A stretch of 64,000 nucleotides of DNA from Rhodococcus sp. HM1 (GTDB lineage Bacteria; Actinomycetota; Actinomycetes; Mycobacteriales; Mycobacteriaceae): contig NZ_JALPTB010000005.1 in NCBI RefSeq assembly GCF_023218075.1, forward strand, positions 62,001-126,000. Direction: 5' to 3'. A program made the translations under genes and the position numbers. Positions 1-58,819 of this stretch are shown here, in pieces (within the stretch, counting starts at the first letter, position 1; each line of letters begins with the position of its first letter). The notes beneath the pieces are model-generated. The model did no database searches. It saw only the letters and a list, made by a program, of their open reading frames with translations, and was not told the origin of the DNA.

Positions 1-350
1 GTGGCGAACGGACGCAACGTTTCGGCCAGCATCGCGGTCGCGACGAGATCGACGGTGAAGATCTGCCGCCAGTCCGCCATCGTCGGCGAGATCCCCGCCG
101 CGTGCGCCACCGCGCGCAGCGTGCCGAGTTCGGACACCCGATCGGCGAGGCGGGCGAGCGCATCGCCGTCGGTGATGTCGAGGACGATCGGCTCCACCGC
201 ACCCGCGGGGGCCAGTGCTTCGGCGGCGGTGGCAACGGTCGCGGCATCGCGGTCGGCGAGCAGCAGGACATCGACCGTCCCGGAAAGCCGTTGCGCGCAG
301 GCGTACCCCATTCCCCGGCCCGCGCCGGTCACGACGCCCACCGTGGTCAT
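1..350 (-). CDS. SDR-family oxidoreductase, 5'-part only (continues past the window start)
   Basis: The reading frame starts at ATG 350-348 and stays open to the window edge, giving about 116 residues of a short-chain dehydrogenase/reductase. The cofactor motif TGAGRGMG is at residues 8-15. A D-I-T after the third strand and an AHAAGIS (a variant of the NNAG motif) follow, as in classical SDRs. The catalytic Tyr-x3-Lys lies outside the window. The start overlaps the end of the upstream VOC gene by four bases, so both are translated from one message that begins at the operator-bearing promoter near 0.84 kb. By context it probably oxidises a hydroxy intermediate of the cluster's acid catabolism. 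That role is inferred; only the family is clear. Confidence 0.8.
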   Translation of the reverse strand, partial: MTTVGVVTGAGRGMGYACAQRLSGTVDVLLLADRDAATVATAAEALAPAGAVEPIVLDITDGDALARLADRVSELGTLRAVAHAAGISPTMADWRQIFTVDLVATAMLAETLRPFA

Positions 351-790
351 GCGCCGGCCCCCCAGCACCGCTGCAGACCCTGCTCCGCGACGCGGGTGAC
401 GAGTTCGATCCGCAGTCCGGTCGTTCCGCGGAGGAACGCGAAGAACAGGCCTCCGTCGGACCCGGCGCGGGTGGCCTCGGTGACGAATCCCCGCGCGACC
501 AGCGCCGCGGCGTCGGCCGCGACGTCGTCGGACCAGTATCCGGCGTGATGGATTCCGCCGCCGGCCTCCCACAACGTTCCCGGGACGCTGCGCACGACCT
601 CGAGGCGGGGTTCGGTGATCGAGTAGGCGCACCGCAGCTCGACCGTGCGGTCGCCGGCGGGAAGCGTCACGGGCACCGCGCCGCCGACCTCCGGTCCCCA
701 CTCGTATCCGAGGAGCGCCGTGAACTCCTCGCGGGTCGCCTCCGGGTCGTCCGCCACGATGCCCAGGTGGAACAGGTCTTCGGCCTTCAT
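347..790 (-). CDS. VOC-superfamily protein (glyoxalase/methylmalonyl-CoA epimerase-like)
   Basis: A 147-residue protein with the beta-alpha-beta-beta-beta layout of the vicinal oxygen chelate fold, in two repeats. Candidate metal ligands are His8 (in FHLGIVA), the HHAGY histidines near residue 82 and the Glu of the C-terminal RIELV strand, a pattern seen in single-domain VOC enzymes such as methylmalonyl-CoA epimerase. Length fits that family. It is the first gene of a minus-strand pair with the SDR (overlap ATGA) and is transcribed divergently from the acyl-CoA dehydrogenase at 891 through a shared promoter with two palindromes. An epimerase acting on an acyl-CoA would fit the B12 mutase encoded at 42.5-44.5 kb, but dioxygenase or isomerase activity is equally possible. 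Confidence 0.75.
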   Translation of the reverse strand: MKAEDLFHLGIVADDPEATREEFTALLGYEWGPEVGGAVPVTLPAGDRTVELRCAYSITEPRLEVVRSVPGTLWEAGGGIHHAGYWSDDVAADAAALVARGFVTEATRAGSDGGLFFAFLRGTTGLRIELVTRVAEQGLQRCWGAGA

Positions 791-834: not shown

Positions 835-870
835 CAGAATTGCATTCTTGATTGCAAGAGTCATATTCTC
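835..870. promoter_or_regulatory. Tandem palindromic operator, divergent promoter (sites 1a and 1b)
   Basis: Site 1a at 835-849 reads CAGAAT-TGC-ATTCTT (10 of 12 positions of GAGAAT-N3-ATTCTC). Site 1b at 856-870 reads AAGAGT-CAT-ATTCTC (10 of 12). The centres are 21 bp apart, two helical turns. They sit between the VOC gene (minus) and the acyl-CoA dehydrogenase gene (plus), 21 bases ahead of its ATG, so a bound repressor would shut both directions. The same motif recurs at the other promoters of the cluster. Confidence 0.8.
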
Positions 871-890: not shown

Positions 891-2192
891 ATGGCATGGG
901 ATTTCGAAACCGACCCCGAGTACCAGGCGAAACTCGACTGGGCCGACGCGTTCGTGCGTGAAGAGGTCGAACCCCTCGATCTGGTGTGGGAACACGAACA
1001 GTTCGTTCCGCTCGACGGCGCCCGGCGCAAGGCGATCGATCCGCTGAAACAGGAGGTCCGGAAACAGGGTCTGTGGGCGACGCACCTCGGGCCGGAACTC
1101 GGCGGTCAGGGCTACGGCCAGCTGAAGCTCGCGCTGCTCAACGAGATCCTCGGCCGATCGAGCTGGGCGCCGATCGTGTTCGGCTGCCAGGCACCGGACA
1201 CCGGCAACGCCGAGATCATCGCTCACTACGGCACTCCCGAGCAGAAGGAGCGCTACCTGCAGCCGCTGCTCGACGGCGAGGTGTTCTCCTCGTACTCGAT
1301 GACCGAACCGCAGGGCGGGGCCGACCCGGCACAGTTCCGGACCCGGGCCGTCAAGGATGGCGACCACTGGGTGATCAACGGCTGGAAGTACTTCTCCTCC
1401 AACGCCCGGACCGCCGAGTTCCTCATCGTGATGGTCGTGACGGATCCCGACGTCCCGGTGCACAAGGGAACGTCGATGTTCCTCGTCCCCACGGACACCC
1501 CGGGTGTCGAGATCGTCCGCAACGTCGGGCTGTACGGCGAACCGATGAACGAGGGCACCCACGCACTGATCCACTACAACAACGTGCGGGTCCCCGCCGA
1601 CGCGATGCTCGGCGAGGAGGGCGGGGCGTTCGCGGCCGCTCAGGTGCGCCTCGGCGGCGGCCGTATCCACCACGCCATGCGCACGATCGGCTTGGCACAG
1701 AAGGCGATCGACATGATGTGCGAGCGCGCCCTGAGCCGCGAGACGGCCGGTAGCCGCCTCGCCGACAAGCAGACCGTGCAGGGTTACATCGCCGATTCCT
1801 ACGCGCAGCTCACCCAGTTCCGGCTGTTCGTGCTCAACACTGCGTGGAAGATCGACAAGTACAACGACTACAAGAAGGTACGCAAGGACATCGCGACCGC
1901 GAAGATCGTGATGCCGACCGTGCTGCACGACATCGCTTGGCGCGCAATGCAGGTGCACGGTGCACTCGGCGTCACCAACGAGATGCCGTTCTTCCGGATG
2001 ATCCACGGCGCCGCGGTGATGGGTCTGGCCGACGGACCGACCGAGGTGCACAAGACGACCGTCGCCAAGCAGGTTCTGCGCGACTACAAGCCGATCGACG
2101 AAATGTGGCCGTCGGAGTGGATCCCGAAGAAGCAAGAAGCCGCCCGGGCGAAATTCGCCGACTACCTCGAACTCGAAGTGGGGAACCTGTGA
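891..2192 (+). CDS. ACAD10/11-like (LvaC-like) acyl-CoA dehydrogenase
   Basis: A 433-residue flavoprotein of the acyl-CoA dehydrogenase fold: alpha-helical N domain (about 1-140), beta domain with SMTEPQGGAD and WVINGWKYFSS (about 140-260), and C-terminal helical domain. GGGRIHHAMR and the C-terminal LADGPTEVH are typical of the ACAD10/ACAD11 branch, where they replace the usual YEGT motif. In Pseudomonas the homologous LvaC acts with the kinase LvaA on 4-hydroxyacyl-CoA, eliminating phosphate and yielding a 3-hydroxyacyl-CoA; that family knowledge is applied here by analogy. The ATG at 891 follows a GGAGAGGAG ribosome site; an upstream in-frame ATG at 852 lies inside the operator and is rejected. 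The next gene overlaps by GTGA. Confidence 0.88.
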   Translation: MAWDFETDPEYQAKLDWADAFVREEVEPLDLVWEHEQFVPLDGARRKAIDPLKQEVRKQGLWATHLGPELGGQGYGQLKLALLNEILGRSSWAPIVFGCQAPDTGNAEIIAHYGTPEQKERYLQPLLDGEVFSSYSMTEPQGGADPAQFRTRAVKDGDHWVINGWKYFSSNARTAEFLIVMVVTDPDVPVHKGTSMFLVPTDTPGVEIVRNVGLYGEPMNEGTHALIHYNNVRVPADAMLGEEGGAFAAAQVRLGGGRIHHAMRTIGLAQKAIDMMCERALSRETAGSRLADKQTVQGYIADSYAQLTQFRLFVLNTAWKIDKYNDYKKVRKDIATAKIVMPTVLHDIAWRAMQVHGALGVTNEMPFFRMIHGAAVMGLADGPTEVHKTTVAKQVLRDYKPIDEMWPSEWIPKKQEAARAKFADYLELEVGNL

Positions 2193-3211
2193 TCGACACC
2201 GAACGCCTCGCCGCATGGATGGACGAGCAGGGCCTGCCCGGCAAGGGAGCCCCGCTCGAGGCCAAGTATCTGTCCGGCGGAACCCAGAACGAGATCTACA
2301 AGCTCACACGTGACGACTTCACGTGCGTCATCCGGATCCCACCGGCCGGCGCGCCCGCCGACCGCGACAACGGAATCATGCGCGAGTGGCGCATCATCCA
2401 GGCGCTGGACGGCACCGACGTCCCGCACACGAAAGCTGTAGCCGCGTGCGAGGACACGTCGGTGCTCGGCCGTTCCTTCTATCTCATGGGATTCGTCGAC
2501 GGCTGGTCCCCGATGGACCACCGCGGCACCTGGCCCGCACCGTTCGACACCGACGTCGAGGCACGAAAAGGACTGGCCTACCAACTCGCCGAGGGCATCG
2601 CCCTGCTCTCGAAGGTCGACTGGAAAGCGCAGGGGCTGCAGGATCTCGGCCGGCCCGAAGGCTTCCACGATCGGCAGGTCGACCGCTGGACCCGATTCTT
2701 CGAACGGATCAAGGCGCGCGAGATCGAAGGCATGGATGTCGCCACCAAGTGGCTGCAGACCCACCGTCCGCTCGACTACGTCCCGGGTCTGATGCACGGT
2801 GACTACCAGTTCGCGAACGTGATGTACCGCAACGGTGCACCCGCGAAGCTCGCGGCACTCGTCGACTGGGAGATGGGCACAGTCGGTGATCCCAAGCTCG
2901 ACCTCGGCTGGATGCTCATGAACTGGCCCGAGGACACGAACGCCATCGAGGACAGCGCGGTCAGCTACGTCGATTTGACCGGGATGCCGAACCGCTCGCA
3001 GATGCTCGCGCACTACGCCGACGTCTCCGGCCGTCAGGTCGACGACCTCGACTACTACCTCGTGCTGGCGAAGTGGAAGCTCGCGATCGTCCTCGAACAG
3101 GGCTTCCAGCGGGCGGGCGACGACGTCAAACTGCAGTCGTACGGTCCGGTCATCGTCAACCTCATGAAGTCGGCGGCGGAACTCGCCGAATCGACGGACT
3201 ACAAGGGATGA
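2189..3211 (+). CDS. APH-family phosphotransferase (LvaA/ACAD11 kinase-domain-like)
   Basis: A 340-residue aminoglycoside-phosphotransferase-fold kinase. The N lobe carries LSGGTQNEIYKL (29-40, nucleotide loop) and VIRIPP. The catalytic loop is HGDYQFANV at 203-211 (His203, Asp205, Asn210), and the metal-binding DWE is at 226-228. No antibiotic-resistance role is implied: this branch is the free-standing equivalent of the kinase domain fused to the dehydrogenase in eukaryotic ACAD10/11, and of LvaA, which phosphorylates the 4-hydroxyl of a hydroxyacyl-CoA. Its GTG start overlaps the dehydrogenase stop (GTGA), and its stop overlaps the next ATG, so the two partners are translationally coupled. 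Substrate chain length is unknown. Confidence 0.85.
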   Translation: MIDTERLAAWMDEQGLPGKGAPLEAKYLSGGTQNEIYKLTRDDFTCVIRIPPAGAPADRDNGIMREWRIIQALDGTDVPHTKAVAACEDTSVLGRSFYLMGFVDGWSPMDHRGTWPAPFDTDVEARKGLAYQLAEGIALLSKVDWKAQGLQDLGRPEGFHDRQVDRWTRFFERIKAREIEGMDVATKWLQTHRPLDYVPGLMHGDYQFANVMYRNGAPAKLAALVDWEMGTVGDPKLDLGWMLMNWPEDTNAIEDSAVSYVDLTGMPNRSQMLAHYADVSGRQVDDLDYYLVLAKWKLAIVLEQGFQRAGDDVKLQSYGPVIVNLMKSAAELAESTDYKG

Positions 3212-3990
3212 CCGGCGGATACGACGGCCTCGTCACGGAGAGGCGCGGGCAGATCCTTGTCCTGCGCCTCGACCGTCCCGAGGCCCGCAACGCCCTGACC
3301 GGTCCGATGATGCGCGGCCTCGGCGCCGCCGCGCGCGAGGCCGAGAACGATCCGGAGATCCGGGCGATCGTCCTCACCGGCTCCGGCGACCGCGCGTTCT
3401 GCTCCGGCATGGATCTGCGTGTGTTCGCCGAGGGAGGCTCGGTCGGGTTCGACAACCCGGACGACGCCGACGCCTACCGTCGGCTGTCCGCCGGGGAACT
3501 CGCCGTCCCGGTGGTGGGCGCCGCCAACGGCACCGCCGTCGGGGGTGGGCTCGAACTGCTCCTCGGGTGTGACATCATCGTCGCGTCCACCGAGGCGAAG
3601 TTCGGTCTCCCCGAGGTGAAGCGGGGCCTGTTCCCGGGCGGTGGAGGCACGACGATCGGGACACGTATCCCCGTCGGCGCCGCACTCGAGATGACGTTGA
3701 CGGGGGATCCGATCACCGCGACCCGAGGCTACGAACTCGGACTCGTCAATGCGGTGGTCGCCCAGGAGAAGGTGCTGGACACCGCGCTCGGATACGCGGA
3801 GCGGATCGCGGCGAACGCGCCGCTCGGGCTCGCCGCGTGCAAGGAGTTGGTCCGGCTGTCCGTGTCCGACTCCGCGCTCGCCGCGTCCCGACTGAAGGAA
3901 TGGCAGAGCACCGTCTTCTCCAGTGCGGACGCCAAAGAGGGCGCGGCGGCGTTCGTCGAGAAGCGTGCCCCCGTATGGCAGGGCAGGTGA
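3208..3990 (+). CDS. Enoyl-CoA hydratase (crotonase with both catalytic glutamates)
   Basis: A 260-residue crotonase. The oxyanion-hole segments are AFCSGMDL (63-70) and GGGLELLLGCD (112-122). Both hydratase glutamates are present: Glu116 in GGGLEL and Glu136 in FGLPEVKRG. The C-terminal trimerisation helices and the EKRAPVWQGR tail are complete. It is therefore the best candidate in the cluster for a true trans-2-enoyl-CoA hydratase; the other three crotonases here lack these residues. It is the third gene of the operon starting at 891, with ATGA overlap to the kinase gene, and probably hydrates the enoyl-CoA made by one of the cluster dehydrogenases. Confidence 0.88.
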   Translation: MTGGYDGLVTERRGQILVLRLDRPEARNALTGPMMRGLGAAAREAENDPEIRAIVLTGSGDRAFCSGMDLRVFAEGGSVGFDNPDDADAYRRLSAGELAVPVVGAANGTAVGGGLELLLGCDIIVASTEAKFGLPEVKRGLFPGGGGTTIGTRIPVGAALEMTLTGDPITATRGYELGLVNAVVAQEKVLDTALGYAERIAANAPLGLAACKELVRLSVSDSALAASRLKEWQSTVFSSADAKEGAAAFVEKRAPVWQGR

Positions 3991-3995
3991 TCCGC

Positions 3996-4961
3996 ATGCG
4001 TGCAGCGATCTGCCCCGAATACGGATCCATCGACGTCGTTCGCGTCGGCACCCTCGATCCGCCCGCACTCGAGCCGGGCAAGGTCCGGGTGCGCGTCGCC
4101 GCGGCCGCGGTGAACTTCCCGGATGTCCTGCTCGTCGCCGACAAGTATCAGATCAGCGTTCCGCCGCCGTTCGTTCCCGGTAGCGAATTCGCCGGTGTCG
4201 TAGAGGAATTGGGCGACGGTGTCGACAGCTTCACGGTCGGTGACCGGGTCGTCGGCACCGGCATCGTCGGGGCGTTCGCGGAACAGGTCGTCGCCCCGGC
4301 ACGGAACTTGACACCGATCCCGGACGGCGTCGACGCCCACGTCGCCGCCGCGTTCGGTGTCGCGCATCGGACCGCCTACCACAGTCTGCGATCGGTGGCC
4401 GGGGTCCGCCCCGGCGACGAGGTGATCGTGCTCGGCGCCGGCGGTGGGGTGGGGCTCGCGGCGGTCCAGCTCGCCGTGGCCATGGGAGCGACCGTCACCG
4501 CGGTCGCGTCCATCCCCGACAAGCTGGAGGTCGCTGCGTCCTACGGGGCACGTCACCTCGTCGACCACCGCACCGTGGATGTGAGGGCGGCGCTGCGGGA
4601 GGCGCTGCCCGGTGGCGCCGACGTGGTGCTGGACCCGGTCGGCGGCGGCCTGTCCGAGGTCGCGTTGCGGACGCTACGACGCGGCGGCCGGTTCGTCACG
4701 ATCGGCTTCGCCTCCGGCGAGATTCCGCGGATCCCGCTGAATCTCGTGCTCGTCAAGGGCGTTCGGATTCTGGGATTCCAATTTCAGGACCTCGATCCGG
4801 ACGAGATGCGGCGCAACGAAATCGAGTTGCGCGAGCTGCTCGCGACCGGACGGGTCGTCCCGCACATCGGCGCGCGCCTGACTCTCGACGACACCGTCGA
4901 GGCGCTGCGCATGGTCGCCGACGGCCGGGCGATCGGCAAGATCGTCATCGACGTGGCGTAA
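3996..4961 (+). CDS. MDR-family NADPH:quinone oxidoreductase-like enzyme
   Basis: A 321-residue medium-chain reductase without the structural-zinc cysteines. The N-terminal GroES-like domain has NFPDVLLVADKYQ and PGSEFAGVVEELG; the Rossmann motif VLGAGGGVGLAAVQLA is at about 145-160. This is the pattern of QorA/zinc-independent quinone oxidoreductases and enoyl reductases using NADPH. ATG 3996 was chosen because AGGTGA lies at a good distance before it; GTG 3987 and ATG 3975 are in-frame alternatives, and GTG 3987 would give the GTGA overlap common here. Last gene of the 891 operon, followed by a strong hairpin. It may reduce a double bond in an enone or enoyl intermediate. Confidence 0.8.
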   Translation: MRAAICPEYGSIDVVRVGTLDPPALEPGKVRVRVAAAAVNFPDVLLVADKYQISVPPPFVPGSEFAGVVEELGDGVDSFTVGDRVVGTGIVGAFAEQVVAPARNLTPIPDGVDAHVAAAFGVAHRTAYHSLRSVAGVRPGDEVIVLGAGGGVGLAAVQLAVAMGATVTAVASIPDKLEVAASYGARHLVDHRTVDVRAALREALPGGADVVLDPVGGGLSEVALRTLRRGGRFVTIGFASGEIPRIPLNLVLVKGVRILGFQFQDLDPDEMRRNEIELRELLATGRVVPHIGARLTLDDTVEALRMVADGRAIGKIVIDVA

Positions 4962-4965
4962 CCGC

Positions 4966-5011
4966 CCGGTGTGCCTTTGTGGCGGCCCTGACCGCCAGAA
5001 AGGCACACCGG
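4966..5011. terminator. Hairpin family A, copy 1, between convergent genes
   Basis: Two 20-base arms (4966-4985 and 4992-5011), pairing GGTGTGCCTTTGTGGCGG with its complement apart from mismatches in the centre of the arm, separated by CCCTGA. It lies between the ends of the MDR gene (plus) and the gene at 5033 (minus). Almost the same sequence forms a perfect hairpin at 35054-35099, also between convergent genes. No U-tract follows. It may act as a bidirectional terminator or mRNA 3'-end stabiliser. Confidence 0.65.
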
Positions 5012-5032
5012 CGGCGAAGCCGCACTGCGTGC

Positions 5033-19646: not shown

Positions 19647-19661
19647 CGCCCGACGCACGAC

Positions 19662-19703
19662 GAACCGTCCCCCCGCAGCCGATGCGCCGCGGGGGGACGG
19701 TTC
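19662..19703 (+). terminator. Rho-independent-like terminator after the oxygenase operon
   Basis: GAACCGTCCCCCCGC (19662-19676) pairs perfectly with GCGGGGGGACGGTTC (19689-19703) around a 12-base loop, followed by CGTTCGT. It ends the CMD-oxygenase-small-protein operon before the duplicated promoter. Confidence 0.75.
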
Positions 19704-19799
19704 CGTTCGTCCGGGACCTTTCGGCCGACACCTTCACCGGACACATTCCCCGGACGTTGACGCCCCCCGACAACTGTGGAAATCTGATAGTCAATGAAT

Positions 19800-19814
19800 G
19801 AGAGTGCCATTCTC
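19800..19814. promoter_or_regulatory. Palindromic operator before the amidohydrolase operon
   Basis: GAGAGT-GCC-ATTCTC matches 11 of 12 consensus positions. A half-site GAGATT follows at 19821, 21 bases on. The preceding CCGGACGTTGAC and TGGAAA elements at the same distances as in 17413-17474 show common origin with the oxygenase promoter. Confidence 0.78.
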
Positions 19815-19851
19815 ATGAATGAGATTGGCTGAGCTCGGGTTCGCCGAGGCG

Positions 19852-19943
19852 ACGAGCTCGGACAGGAAGGTGGACCCGTGCCCCATTTCCCGAAACCAGC
19901 CGAAGGCAGCCGGGCCGAAGTCATCCGAGAACCGGTGGTGTAG
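19852..19943 (+). pseudogene. Deletion scar: Rieske 5' end fused in frame to 3' end of its small companion gene
   Basis: Bases from about 19852 copy the end of the CMD gene and the leader (GAGCTCGGACAGGAAGG), then GTG 19878 opens a 21-codon frame. Its first 11 codons (VPHFPKPAEGS) are those of the oxygenase at 18053, and its last codons (AEVIREPVV, stop 19941-19943) correspond to the end of the small gene (AEIIHEPVV). The join lies at TGGaCCGAA/TGGgCCGAA, a 9-base near-identity between the two genes. It is the remnant of a second CMD-oxygenase-small gene set lost by internal deletion. The reading frame is intact, has a good AGGAAGG site, and stops two bases before the amidohydrolase GTG, so it may now serve as a leader peptide for translational coupling. 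Confidence 0.85.
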
Positions 19944-19945
19944 CG

Positions 19946-27230: not shown

Positions 27231-27268
27231 CGAGAATAACATTCTCGCTTGACGAAAGTAATAGTCTC
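27231..27268. promoter_or_regulatory. Tandem palindromic operator between dehydrogenase pair 2 and the TetR gene
   Basis: A perfect GAGAAT-AAC-ATTCTC at 27232-27246 (extended by C/G on each side) and a weaker GAAAGT-AAT-AGTCTC at 27254-27268 (9 of 12). Centre distance is 22 bp, as at 835-870. The site serves the minus-strand dehydrogenase operon and probably the TetR gene, an arrangement expected of an autoregulated repressor. The rest of 27187-27366 shows no gene. Confidence 0.82.
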
Positions 27269-27366: not shown

Positions 27367-28023
27367 GTGGTGACCGGCCCCAGCGAAGAGCCGGCCTGGA
27401 AGCAGCGCGCAGTCGAGCGCTCCATCAGGACCGCCAAGATCCGGGCCGAACAGCGAGTGCAGCGCTTCCTCGACGCGGCTCAGTCGATCATCGCCGAAAA
27501 GGGCAGCACGGATTTCACCGTGCAGGAGGTCGTGGACCGGTCCAAGCAGTCGCTGCGCAGCTTCTACCTGCAGTTCGACGGCAAGCACGAGCTGCTGCTC
27601 GCGCTCTTCGAGGACGCCCTCAGCCGCTCCGCCGACCAGATCCGCGCCGCGGCGTCCGGCCAGGACGCGCCGCTCGACCAGCTCCGCGTCGCGGTCGAGC
27701 TGCTGTTCGAGTTCTGCCGGCCCGACCCGAGCGCGCAGCGTCCGCTGTTCACCGACTTCGCCCCGCAGCTGCTGCTCACGCATCCCGCCGAGGTCAAGGT
27801 CGCGCACTCCTCGATGCTCGCGCTGTTCACCGAGCTGATGGAGAAGGTCGCCGCCTCCGGCGAGCTGCGCCCGGGCGCCAACCCGCGCCGACTGGCCGCG
27901 ATGACGATGCAGACCGTCATGTTCATCGCACAGTCCGCGGGCGCCCCCGACGACGCGACCATCAAGCCGATCTCGGCCGAGGAAGTCTGGACCTTCTGCT
28001 CCCGCGGATTCGCCGGTAACTGA
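27367..28023 (+). CDS. TetR-family regulator, candidate master repressor of the cluster
   Basis: A 218-residue TetR protein: basic N-terminal extension (about 1-25), HTH at about 35-80 (AQSIIAEKGSTDFTVQEVVDRSKQSLRSFYLQFDGKHELL), and a helical ligand domain (LRVAVELLFEFCRPDP, LLLTHPAEVKVAHSSMLALFTELME). It starts at GTG 27367 (GTG 27370 is equally possible; no strong ribosome site). It lies in the middle of the 45-kb cluster, with cluster palindromes both upstream (27232) and right after its stop (28036). Acyl-CoA-sensing TetR repressors of this sort control fatty acid and steroid genes; binding to GAGAAT-N3-ATTCTC is inferred from position only. Confidence 0.85.
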   Translation: MVTGPSEEPAWKQRAVERSIRTAKIRAEQRVQRFLDAAQSIIAEKGSTDFTVQEVVDRSKQSLRSFYLQFDGKHELLLALFEDALSRSADQIRAAASGQDAPLDQLRVAVELLFEFCRPDPSAQRPLFTDFAPQLLLTHPAEVKVAHSSMLALFTELMEKVAASGELRPGANPRRLAAMTMQTVMFIAQSAGAPDDATIKPISAEEVWTFCSRGFAGN

Positions 28024-28035
28024 GGAATCGTCGGC

Positions 28036-28074
28036 GAGAATCGTATTCTCAATCGGGGATAGTTCGCTTACACT
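28036..28074 (+). promoter_or_regulatory. Perfect operator plus -10 element of a probable leaderless promoter
   Basis: GAGAAT-CGT-ATTCTC at 28036-28050 and TACACT at 28069-28074. The GTG of the thioesterase gene begins seven bases after the -10, which is where transcription should start, and there is no ribosome site, so the mRNA is probably leaderless. The operator covers the -35 zone. Confidence 0.75.
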
Positions 28075-30022: not shown

Positions 30023-30886
30023 TCAGGGACGGCCGAGCAGCCGCGCGGCCGCGCTGTACGGATCGGTGCTCCCGTCCGCGACCGCGGCGGCCAGATCGTC
30101 GAGTTCCGGCAGCGAACGCAGCTGCGACAGGGCCAGGGACAGGATCTGGGACCGTGCCCGGGCGGCGCGGCGTTCCCCGCTGTCGGCGCGCTGATGCAGT
30201 TCGATCGCATCCATCAGCGCGTCGACGCCCTCGCCCTTCGACGCGACGAGCATGAGGATCGGAACGTCCGTCTCCGCCTTCAGATCCCGGACCGTCCGAT
30301 CGGCGCCCTCGCGGTCCGCCTTGTTCACCACGAGCAGGTCGGCGACCTCGAGCAGACCGGCCTTCGCGGCCTGGATCGCGTCGCCGCCACCGGGGTTGAG
30401 GAGCACGACCGTCGGATCGGCGACCGCCGCGATCTCGATCTCGGACTGTCCGACCCCGACGCTCTCGAGCAGCACCACGTCGTAGCCGAGTGCGGCGAGC
30501 AAGCGGATCGCGGCGGGTACCGCGGCGGACAGGCCGCCGAGATGGCCGCGCGCCGCGAGCGAACGGATCAGCACATCGGGGTCGTTGACGTGGGCGGCCA
30601 TGCGGATCCGGTCGCCGAGCAGCGCTCCCCCGCTGTACGGGGAGGACGGGTCGACGGCGAGCACCGCGACCCGGAACCCGCGCTCGCGGTATGCGGTGAC
30701 GAGCACACCGACGGTCGTCGACTTGCCGGCGCCGGGTGGTCCGGTCACCCCGACCACCCGCACGGGCACCGGGTCGATGGCGGCGAGCACCTCGTCGCGC
30801 CGGTCGTCCTCGACCATCGTCAGCAGCCGTCCCGCCGCGCGCACGGACCCGGTGCGCGCGGCGGCGAGAAGATCGTCGATCGTCAC
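30023..30886 (-). CDS. meaB: MeaB/ArgK-family GTPase (chaperone of B12-dependent mutase)
   Basis: A 287-residue G3E P-loop GTPase: Walker A GPPGAGKST (50-58), AVDPSSPYSGGALLGDRIRM, LLESVGVGQSE (E-S in place of the usual E-T-VGVGQSE) and the base motif NKADRE. MeaB proteins load and protect adenosylcobalamin in mutases. The mutase they would serve is the split enzyme at 42545-44523, 12 kb away but under the same operator. It lies 34 bases behind the thiolase in the ligase-thiolase-MeaB operon starting at 33492. The family usually is about 320 residues; the N terminus is short. Confidence 0.9.
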   Translation of the reverse strand: MTIDDLLAAARTGSVRAAGRLLTMVEDDRRDEVLAAIDPVPVRVVGVTGPPGAGKSTTVGVLVTAYRERGFRVAVLAVDPSSPYSGGALLGDRIRMAAHVNDPDVLIRSLAARGHLGGLSAAVPAAIRLLAALGYDVVLLESVGVGQSEIEIAAVADPTVVLLNPGGGDAIQAAKAGLLEVADLLVVNKADREGADRTVRDLKAETDVPILMLVASKGEGVDALMDAIELHQRADSGERRAARARSQILSLALSQLRSLPELDDLAAAVADGSTDPYSAAARLLGRP

Positions 30887-35044: not shown

Positions 35045-35053
35045 CGCTACGCG

Positions 35054-35099
35054 CCGGTGTGCCTTTGTGGCGGCTCCCACCGCCACAAAGGCACACCGG
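35054..35099. terminator. Hairpin family A, copy 2, between convergent genes
   Basis: Perfect 20-bp arms (35054-35073 and 35080-35099; CCGGTGTGCCTTTGTGGCGG and complement), loop CTCCCA. Same arm sequence as at 4966-5011, and again between convergent operon ends. Probably a bidirectional terminator spread as a repeat. Confidence 0.75.
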
Positions 35100-35103
35100 G
35101 CCG

Positions 35104-40392: not shown

Positions 40393-40398
40393 CCGAAA

Positions 40399-40450
40399 CC
40401 CCTCGTGCGTGGTTTCGGTAGCACCGGCTACCGAAACCACGCACGAGGGG
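40399..40450. terminator. Hairpin family B, copy 1, between convergent genes
   Basis: Perfect 24-bp arms (40399-40422 and 40427-40450; core CGTGCGTGGTTTCGGTAGC) with a 4-base loop. A near copy with core CGTGCGTGCTTTCGGTAGC is at 58778-58819. It sits between the reductase and CoA-transferase stops and may terminate both. Confidence 0.78.
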
Positions 40451-40456
40451 GAAGGG

Positions 40457-42544: not shown

Positions 42545-42946
42545 TCAGGCCGGGGTGTCGGTACCGGTCAGCTTGCGGACCTCGGTCACCAGGACGTCCA
42601 GCGGTGTGCTGGTGGGGAACACGGCCGCAGCCCCCGCGGAGAGCAGCTTCGGTACGTCGCCCTGCGGGATGGTGCCACCGACGATCACGGCGATGTCGCC
42701 GGCGTCGGCGGCCTTGAGCGCCTCGATCGTGCGGGTGGTCAGCGCGATGTGCGCACCCGAGAGGATGCTCAGGCCGACGACCGCGACGTCCTCCTGCAGC
42801 GCGATGGACACGATGTCCTCGATCTTCTGGCGGATGCCGGTGTAGATGACCTCGAATCCGGCGTCGCGCAGTGCGCGCGCGACGATCTTGGCGCCCCGGT
42901 CGTGGCCGTCGAGTCCGGGCTTGGCGACGAGGATGCGGGCGGTCAT
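42545..42946 (-). CDS. B12-binding small subunit of a split acyl-CoA mutase
   Basis: A 133-residue cobalamin-binding domain: KPGLDGHDRGAK carries the DxHxxG motif (Asp13 and His15 region, His being the lower cobalt ligand), SILSGAH matches SxL, and VGGTIP gives the GG. Such free-standing domains pair with separate large subunits in isobutyryl-, 2-hydroxyisobutyryl- and archaeal methylmalonyl-CoA mutases. ATG 42946 overlaps the large-subunit stop (TGATG). Together they shift a CoA-carbonyl group between adjacent carbons. Confidence 0.93.
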   Translation of the reverse strand: MTARILVAKPGLDGHDRGAKIVARALRDAGFEVIYTGIRQKIEDIVSIALQEDVAVVGLSILSGAHIALTTRTIEALKAADAGDIAVIVGGTIPQGDVPKLLSAGAAAVFPTSTPLDVLVTEVRKLTGTDTPA

Positions 42947-44523
42947 CAGAACACCACCGGCTGCTGGAATTCGCCCCACACGGCCTTGAGCGCGGAGACC
43001 ATTTCGCCGACGGTGCAGTACGCGTTGGCGCAGTCGATCAGTTTGTGCATGAGGTTGTCGGTTCCTTCCGCTGCGCGGGACAGGGCGGCGAGACTGGTCT
43101 TGACCAGCTCCGGATCGCGTTCGGCCTTGACCTTGGCGAGTCGCTTGAGCTGCAGCTCACGGCCTTCGGCGTCGAGCTCGTACGTGCCGATCTCCGGTGG
43201 CGGCTCGTTCGACGTGAGCTTGTTGACGCCGACGACGGTGCGCTCGCCCGCCTCGATCTGCAGGTGGAGCTTGTAGGCCTCGTCCGCGATGAGGCCCTGC
43301 AGGTAGCCGTCCTCGATCGCGCGCACCATGCCGCCGTGCTCTTCGAGATCGCTCATGATCTCGACGATCTTGGCTTCGGTCGCGTCGGTGAGCGCCTCGA
43401 CGAAGTACGAGCCGCCCAGGGGATCGGCGACCCGCGCGACCCCGGTCTCGTACGCGAGGATCTGTTGCGTGCGCAGTGCGAGCGTCGCCGATTCCTCGCT
43501 GGGCAGCGCGAACGGCTCGTCCCACGCGGCGGTGAACATCGACTGGACACCACCGAGCACCGAGGCCATCGCCTCGTAGGCGACGCGCACCAGGTTGTTC
43601 TGGGCCTGCGGGGCGTACAGCGACGCACCGCCGGCGACGCAGCCGAACCGGAACATCGACGCCTTCTCGGTCTTCGCGCCGTAGCGTTCGCGCACGATCG
43701 TCGCCCAACGGCGGCGTCCCGCACGGTATTTCGCGATCTCCTCGAAGAAGTCGCCGTGGGTGTAGAAGAAGAACGAGATCTGCGGGGCGAACTGATCGAT
43801 CGTCATGCGTCCGCGTTCGACGACGGTGTCGCAGTAGGTGACGCCGTCGGCGAGGGTGAACGCCATCTCCTGCACGGCGTTCGCACCGGCGTCGCGGAAG
43901 TGCGCGCCCGCCACCGAGATCGCGTTGAACCGCGGAACTTCCGCGGCGCAGAACTCGATGGTGTCGGCGATCAGCCGCAGCGACGGTTCGGGCGGCCAGA
44001 TCCAGGTGCCGCGCGAGGCGTATTCCTTGAGGATGTCGTTCTGGATCGTGCCGGTGAGCTTTTCGCGGGGCACGCCGGATTTCTCCGCGGCGGCGACGTA
44101 GAACGCGAGCAGGATCGCGGCCGTGCCGTTGATGGTGAAGCTGGTGCTGATCTTGTCGAGCGGGATGCCGTCGAACAGGATCTCGGCGTCGGCGAGGGTG
44201 TCGACGGCGACGCCGACACGTCCGACCTCCTCACCGTATTCCGGGTCGTCGGAGTCGTAGCCGCACTGGGTGGGCAGGTCGAGCGCGACGGACAACCCGG
44301 TGCCGCCCTGGTCGAGGAGATACCGGTAGCGCCGGTTGGATTCCTCGGCGGTCCCGAATCCGGAGTACTGGCGGAACGTCCACAGCCGACCGCGATAGCC
44401 GGTCGCGAAGTTGCCGCGGGTGAAGGGGAATTCGCCCGGTGCAGGCGGTTCGCCGACTCTGTCGGCCGGTCCGTACACCGCATCCAGGGGGATTCCCGAC
44501 GAGGTCTCAGCGAAATCGGTCAC
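42946..44523 (-). CDS. Split acyl-CoA mutase large subunit, methylmalonyl-CoA-type active site
   Basis: A 525-residue TIM-barrel mutase subunit. RLWTFRQYSGFGTAEESN (46-63) and GYDSDDP (88-94) are the CoA/substrate region; TGTIQNDILKEYASRGTW and WPPEPS follow. The residues that select substrate are Tyr53 and Arg171, as in methylmalonyl-CoA mutase, not Phe/Gln (isobutyryl-CoA) or Ile/Gln (2-hydroxyisobutyryl-CoA). His208 in SVAGAHF matches the catalytic histidine. Arg171 would bind a carboxylate, so a (substituted) methylmalonyl/succinyl-CoA is the likely substrate. GTG 44523 was chosen; longer frames run through the operator. First gene of a minus operon with small subunit, LLM and CoA transferase. 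Confidence 0.93.
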   Translation of the reverse strand: MTDFAETSSGIPLDAVYGPADRVGEPPAPGEFPFTRGNFATGYRGRLWTFRQYSGFGTAEESNRRYRYLLDQGGTGLSVALDLPTQCGYDSDDPEYGEEVGRVGVAVDTLADAEILFDGIPLDKISTSFTINGTAAILLAFYVAAAEKSGVPREKLTGTIQNDILKEYASRGTWIWPPEPSLRLIADTIEFCAAEVPRFNAISVAGAHFRDAGANAVQEMAFTLADGVTYCDTVVERGRMTIDQFAPQISFFFYTHGDFFEEIAKYRAGRRRWATIVRERYGAKTEKASMFRFGCVAGGASLYAPQAQNNLVRVAYEAMASVLGGVQSMFTAAWDEPFALPSEESATLALRTQQILAYETGVARVADPLGGSYFVEALTDATEAKIVEIMSDLEEHGGMVRAIEDGYLQGLIADEAYKLHLQIEAGERTVVGVNKLTSNEPPPEIGTYELDAEGRELQLKRLAKVKAERDPELVKTSLAALSRAAEGTDNLMHKLIDCANAYCTVGEMVSALKAVWGEFQQPVVF

Positions 44524-58766: not shown

Positions 58767-58777
58767 CCCCGCTCCTC

Positions 58778-58819
58778 CGTGCGTGCTTTCGGTAGCCCCC
58801 GCTACCGAAAGCACGCACG
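58778..58819 (+). terminator. Hairpin family B, copy 2
   Basis: Perfect 19-bp arms (58778-58796 and 58801-58819; core CGTGCGTGCTTTCGGTAGC), loop CCCC. Core sequence is nearly identical to the hairpin at 40399-40450. Here it follows the TetR gene and precedes a co-directional gene. Confidence 0.75.

Follow-up and report, generated by a model that had tools for sequence, protein, structure and literature searches.

The acyl-CoA dehydrogenase (ACAD) g2 and the kinase g3 near the start of the window, the whole 64-kb stretch of DNA that was analysed, probably form an ATP-dependent dehydroxylation module that acts on a CoA thioester, with the hydroxyl most likely in the gamma position. Phosphorylation followed by phosphate elimination is the best reading because the residues of the site are conserved and the R/H/R/D set is missing from the conventional ACADs compared. 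A preliminary description of this DNA had proposed that the kinase and the dehydrogenase together phosphorylate and isomerise 4-hydroxyacyl-CoA, and had assigned the pair to the ACAD10/11 and LvaA/LvaC family. The chemistry, a kinase working with a phosphate-eliminating ACAD, is upheld in so far as all experimentally implicated residues are conserved, but the family claim is not, as g2 belongs to a sister clade. The window is part of contig C203 of a 6.93-Mb genome, for which the closest named genome is Rhodococcus zopfii (ACAD 97% identical, kinase 92%). The features discussed below are listed in Table 1.

Table 1. Features of the kinase-ACAD locus and its putative regulator (positions in the window)
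Feature	Position	Strand	Basis
VOC/glyoxalase-fold protein, divergent from ACAD g2	347-790	-	
Two imperfect operator copies upstream of ACAD g2, 2 mismatches each to GAGAATNNNATTCTC	835-849, 856-870		
ACAD11-like acyl-CoA dehydrogenase (g2), 433 aa, ATG start	891-2192	+	ORF, Pfam, PDB sequence matches, tree, model
Phosphate-site helix codons R253 to R264 (RLGGGRIHHAMR) of g2	1647-1682	+	translation, alignment
Predicted catalytic aspartate D381 codon (DGPTEVH) of g2	2031-2033	+	translation, alignment
APH-fold kinase (g3), 340 aa, GTG start; R65-E66 (alpha-C), R162, D205, N210, D226	2189-3211	+	
Enoyl-CoA hydratase (g4); EchA19 model best, below cut-off; 4-bp overlap with kinase	3208-3990	+	
PIG3/QOR-type NADPH oxidoreductase, start 3975 or 3987	3975-4961	+	
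TetR-family regulator (g29), between perfect operators 27232-27246 and 28036-28050	27367-28023	+	

The ACAD and its phosphate site

The start codon of g2 is preceded by GGAGAGGAG, and the protein carries the Pfam Acyl-CoA_dh N, M and C-terminal domains, each above cut-off. The dehydrogenase had been located correctly in the preliminary description, and its hallmarks are found in the ORF translation, with GGGRIHHAMR at residues 255-264 and DGPTEVH beginning at D381. The top PDB sequence matches are mouse ACAD11 (4.3e-75), 4hr3 and human ACAD11, and the next ACAD reaches only 1.2e-45. The AlphaFold model (pLDDT 87.5) likewise has 4hr3 and human and mouse ACAD11 as its closest folds.

By alignment, P94, R253, R258, H261, R264 and D381 of g2 correspond to P462, R626, R631, H634, R637 and D753 of mouse ACAD11. 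Rashan et al. (PMC12440821) report D753 as the ACAD base and R626, H634 and R637 as phosphate contacts, and describe R631 as a general ACAD residue. The proline is reported in a 2024 paper (PMC11342911) to break a helix in ACAD11 (P463 in human ACAD11). The R/H/R/D set occurs together in none of the six outgroup (conventional) ACADs. Among 80 related loci, the equivalents of R626, R631, H634 and R637 are present in all 80 and that of D753 in 79, the exception being a truncated contig. The helix-breaking proline is found in 75 of these loci and in 14 of 24 LvaC-like rows, so it is not universal there either.

These 80 loci were retrieved with motif patterns, including GGR[IV]HHAM, and therefore the residue check was repeated on an evenly drawn set of 296 Actinomycetota genomes. 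The clade was found in 23 of them at E <= 1e-150, source genome included. We examined 28 of the 37 matches, omitting the five of the source genome and four for which no locus was retrieved, and P, R, R, H, R and D were all present in 28/28.

Two segments of the g2 clade differ from mouse ACAD11, which has HCMR where the clade has HAMR and TEPNVSSSDATN where it has TEPQGGADP. The HCMR motif is absent from g2, and its second position holds A in 80/80 pattern-retrieved loci and C in 24/24 LvaC-like rows. HAMR was nevertheless rejected as a clade marker. The 80/80 count is partly built in by the retrieval pattern GGR[IV]HHAM, the even-draw loci vary at this position (A, C, V or G), and 4hr3 has A although it lies inside the ACAD11 clade.

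Phylogenetic placement

The ACAD tree has 76 rows and includes 28 of the 80 loci, hand-picked for spread. All ACADs with the R/H/R/D set fall in one clade (70 rows, support 100/100), which contains two well supported groups. The ACAD11 clade (30 rows, 100/99) holds mouse and human ACAD11, 4hr3, 24 bacterial ACAD11-like rows and the paralogues C12, C186b and C212 of the source genome. The g2 clade (38 rows, 100/99) holds g2, the paralogues C132, C170, C226 and C186a, and relatives from Actinomycetota, Myxococcota and Pseudomonadota. Two further paralogous ACADs, C76 and C187, branch outside both clades on long branches.

Phylogeny had been named beforehand as the test of whether g2 belongs to the ACAD10/11/LvaC clade, and it places g2 in the sister clade, in a tree among whose rows LvaC itself is absent. 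The kinase likewise lies outside the group of the mouse ACAD11 kinase. With a separate ACAD clade and a separate kinase clade, the pair is, on these trees, a sister subfamily and not LvaA/LvaC. The identities point the same way. g2 is 41% identical to mouse ACAD11, and the paralogue C12 is 58% identical to it, so C12 is by this measure and by its position the nearer relative of LvaC/ACAD11. The reported identity of LvaC is 62% to human ACAD10 and 56% to human ACAD11 (PMC11342911), and the latter value, set against the 41% of g2 to mouse ACAD11, agrees with the sister placement. Strict orthology of g2 to LvaC/ACAD11 was thus ruled out by identity and tree. In a literature search that covered mainly titles and the openings of abstracts, we found nothing on this ACAD/kinase subfamily and no tested member.

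The kinase

The ORFs of g2 and g3 overlap by 4 bp. An APH-fold kinase with HGD and DWE motifs had been expected here, and this is what g3 encodes, with HGD at D205, DWE at D226 and the Pfam APH domain above cut-off. Its PDB sequence matches are 3dxp, 9o56 and the ACAD11 kinase domain. The closest fold to its AlphaFold model (pLDDT 91.4) is 3dxp (2.3e-25), and further fold matches include Rv3168 and the 25-hydroxysteroid kinase (25-HSK, ranks 3-5, 4.5e-15). R162, D205 and N210 of g3 align with R176, D220 and N225 of mouse ACAD11, of which Rashan et al. (PMC12440821) assign D220 and N225 as catalytic and R176 as contacting CoA. We found no match by number for the R86 of that paper; in our count the Arg that precedes the alpha-C Glu is at position 84, and in g3 it is R65. 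In a kinase tree of 39 rows picked by hand, g3 falls in a clade of 17 rows (100/99), and the mouse ACAD11 kinase joins 3dxp and a Sphingopyxis kinase (100/99).

Pairing of ACAD and kinase genes

The source genome encodes ten ACAD11-like ACADs (at least 218 bits), and since an APH kinase adjoins 10/10 of them, the pairing of the genes is not due to chance. The partners can differ, however: C132 and C170 carry ACADs that share 61-62% identity with g2, yet their kinases are 22% identical to g3. The equivalent of R176 is missing from the partner kinases of C132, C170 and C187, and that of C226 falls together with 9o56 and C212 in the kinase tree. Judged from these comparisons, ACAD and kinase partners do not track each other among the paralogous pairs. 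The C132 and C170 clusters (L058 and L059), each of about 10 kb or more, look like near-duplicates, and their ACADs are 96% identical. There are also APH kinases of the family without an adjacent ACAD11-like ACAD, on C11 (L066) and C55 (L067/L068), and in the kinase tree the C11 kinase groups with the partner of C186a.

The pair is kept in Nocardia, Actinomadura and Streptomyces. Of 35 loci with close orthologues of g2 (at least 78.5% identical), 32 have the kinase immediately downstream and one (L085) has it upstream; of the remaining two, L093 has no kinase and in the other the contig ends. In the wider clade a kinase is adjacent in 47 of the 63 loci with full flanks, and in 16 there is none within 2.5 kb. 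This is the cleaned count, the raw one of 54/80 including two weak matches (31 and 38 bits) and short contigs. In the even draw a kinase was found within 1.5 kb in 11/28 loci and none in 17/28. The kinase-less loci of both samples rule out that a kinase is always adjacent. In sixteen kinase-less loci among the 80 whose site residues were compared, R, R, H, R and D are all kept, and in 15 of them the proline. Genomes with a kinase-less copy carry a family kinase elsewhere in 22/22 cases tested (8/8 at E <= 1e-10 and 14/14 at E <= 1e-40). This lends weak support to the pairing, because family kinases are present as well in 9 of the 14 comparison genomes that do not have the clade. Kinase-less copies of g2 occur in Mycolicibacterium (L093 and L101, 78-79%); they keep all site residues, and kinases lie elsewhere in those genomes.

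Operator and regulon

The window contains nine copies of the palindrome GAGAATNNNATTCTC when up to 2 mismatches are allowed, against 0.83 expected, and none of 100 shuffles reached nine. Genome-wide the palindrome is found in 18 places at up to 1 mismatch and its reversed control in none. It precedes units with the Rieske oxygenase, heteromeric ACADs, CoA ligases, SDRs and a ferredoxin reductase, and also flanks the TetR gene g29. In the window it marks a large TetR-type catabolic regulon at 17460-44563. The pair had been described as standing at the head of this regulon; it does start an operator-bearing unit, but one of several units spread across C203:26-102 kb. Another palindrome upstream of the ACAD gene, TCTTGNNTGCAAGA, was discarded, as it occurs in one place only (the two matches being the two strands) with a chance expectation of 1.36.

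A site with up to 2 mismatches lies before the ACAD gene in 12 of 79 related loci against 0.3 expected under mononucleotide shuffles, a mild null. Orthologous promoters with the site were found in R. zopfii, Nocardia and Actinomadura, and perfect sites in two Streptomyces, in both of which a homologue of g29 adjoins the kinase-ACAD pair divergently. The putative operator before the ACAD genes of related loci is independent support for the pair's membership in the regulon. No such site was found before the mycobacterial orthologues examined. In the source genome the C132 and C170 pairs also bear the operator (1 and 2 mismatches; C132:27749 and C170:50429), and the other paralogous units are without it (best match with at least 3 mismatches).

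An ACAD of the regulon is nearest to Tcur3483 and 4x28, which we take to be steroid-type heteromeric ACADs, 4x28 presumably being ChsE4. The same cluster contains a split B12-dependent acyl-CoA mutase (525-aa large and 133-aa small subunit) and a MeaB GTPase (42545-44523 and 30023-30886). No NCBIfam equivalog scored above cut-off for the ACAD g2, the kinase g3 or the Rieske protein, and the relatives of the Rieske protein on plasmids are 32-35% identical and without a named function. Between g20 and g21 (19647-19945, by eye) an operator stands before an ORF of 21 codons in which the start of the Rieske gene (MPHFPKPAEGS) is joined to a g20-like end (EPVV), and which looks like what an internal deletion has left of a duplicated Rieske unit.

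Among the related loci, whose neighbours were listed when matching at more than 60 bits, the QOR-type oxidoreductase is kept beside the kinase-ACAD pair more often than the hydratase. The genes of ACAD, kinase and hydratase overlap, hence at this locus there is no gene between them and no LvaB-like one. The window also has near-perfect intergenic hairpins (by eye) of two kinds with two copies each, at 4962-5032 and 35045-35103 and at 40393-40456 and 58767-58810, which are terminator- or REP-like.

Proposed function and alternatives

We infer the activity, the gamma position and the product of g2 and g3 as follows. A hydroxyacyl-CoA made earlier in the pathway would be the substrate of g3, which would transfer a phosphate from ATP to its hydroxyl, most likely the gamma one. 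R253, H261 and R264 of g2 would hold the phosphoester, and D381 together with a redox-active but net redox-neutral FAD would expel the phosphate to give a 2-enoyl-CoA. The coupled hydratase g4 is the probable next step, and with a subsequent thiolase it would take the 2-enoyl-CoA through beta-oxidation. Such phosphorylation-elimination chemistry is reported for ACAD10/11, LvaA/LvaC and orthologues of Burkholderia pseudomallei (PMC12440821, PMC11342911, PMC6692424). By analogy, a gamma-hydroxy acid or gamma-lactone intermediate, as the preliminary description had predicted, is plausible; the C4 position of the hydroxyl is carried over from relatives at about 41% identity.

As g2 is only 41% identical to mouse ACAD11 and lies in a clade apart, the substrate and the hydroxyl position could differ. 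A substrate that is bulky, branched or polycyclic, and bulkier than 4-hydroxyvalerate, is suggested because the regulon holds steroid-type heteromeric ACADs, the Rieske oxygenase and the split B12 acyl-CoA mutase. The same chemistry might therefore act on a hydroxyl elsewhere on a bulky CoA thioester (delta, ring or tertiary), the gamma position of ACAD11/LvaC not being transferable to the sister clade. The separate clades of both ACAD and kinase, the changes specific to the clade in its TEP and HAMR segments, and a regulon with the split B12 mutase and heteromeric ACADs nearest Tcur3483 and ChsE4 all fit this reading. We regard it as unlikely, though, as every ACAD11 phosphate-site residue is retained, which suggests that phosphate, alpha and beta carbons and flavin are arranged in the same geometry.

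Less probable still is that the kinase phosphorylates a free hydroxyl of the parent compound, as 25-HSK does in a published phosphorylation-elimination route (PMC8449060), and that the ACAD is an ordinary beta-oxidation dehydrogenase which merely shares the operon. 25-HSK does rank among the closest folds of the g3 model and the two genes are not always neighbours, but 3dxp is by far the better fold match (2.3e-25 against 4.5e-15), g3 keeps the CoA-contacting Arg, and g2 has the complete phosphate-site set found in 0/6 outgroup ACADs. A role of the pair as strict LvaA/LvaC orthologues, with levulinate or simple 4-hydroxy fatty acids as substrates, is very improbable: architecture and site residues are the same and the cluster also holds SDRs and CoA ligases, but the genome has a closer ACAD11 relative, C12, with its own kinase, and the tree and the regulon content speak against it.

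Beyond dehydroxylation by g2 and g3 itself, a broader picture is possible, which we offer tentatively. The pair may be part of an ancient lineage, sister to ACAD10/11 and accompanied by a kinase subfamily of its own, that uses ATP to dehydroxylate hydroxyacyl-CoAs of a bulky branched or polycyclic kind (steroid- or terpenoid-like). Actinobacteria may have multiplied this lineage, so that many exchangeable kinase-ACAD pairs came to lie in different catabolic clusters. The present pair would then serve a conserved TetR regulon that comprises a Rieske oxygenase, a split B12 acyl-CoA mutase and three heteromeric ACADs. An explanation of the mammalian ACAD10/11 chemistry came only in 2024-2025. If bacteria have a large sister branch that shares this phosphate site, it would suggest that removal of hydroxyls from CoA esters via phosphorylation is a general catabolic tool. 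It would also supply a testable step for many gene clusters and be a source of enzymes for bulky hydroxy acids and lactones.

Comparison with known systems

Mouse and human ACAD11, which together with 4hr3 are the closest solved folds to g2, share with the pair, as does ACAD10, the ACAD Asp, the equivalents of R626/R631/H634/R637, the proline, and the kinase HGD, N225 and R176. They are kinase-ACAD fusions, whereas g2 and g3 are separate polypeptides. Mouse ACAD11 further differs in its sister clade, at 41% ACAD identity, in having HCMR for HAMR, and in the clade of its kinase. The Mycobacterium abscessus ACAD 4hr3 is the best fold match of g2, with the same site residues and a shared HAMR, but sits in the ACAD11/LvaC-like clade with the paralogue C212 (80%).

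The lva operon of Pseudomonas putida also has a free-standing kinase and ACAD, LvaA and LvaC, in one operon (PMC6692424). It differs in its other neighbours and in the LvaB-like gene that is lacking between the pair here, LvaC being compared through published identities. P. citronellolis is likewise described as having no LvaB-like gene (PMC6692424).

Another example is the 25-hydroxysteroid kinase of Sterolibacterium (PMC8449060), which has an APH-like fold and is reported to phosphorylate before the hydroxyl is eliminated; the lyase of the route is given there as still unknown in 2021. Unlike g3, as proposed here, this kinase acts on a tertiary alcohol of the free steroid, and the two are 18-19% identical in the structural alignment.
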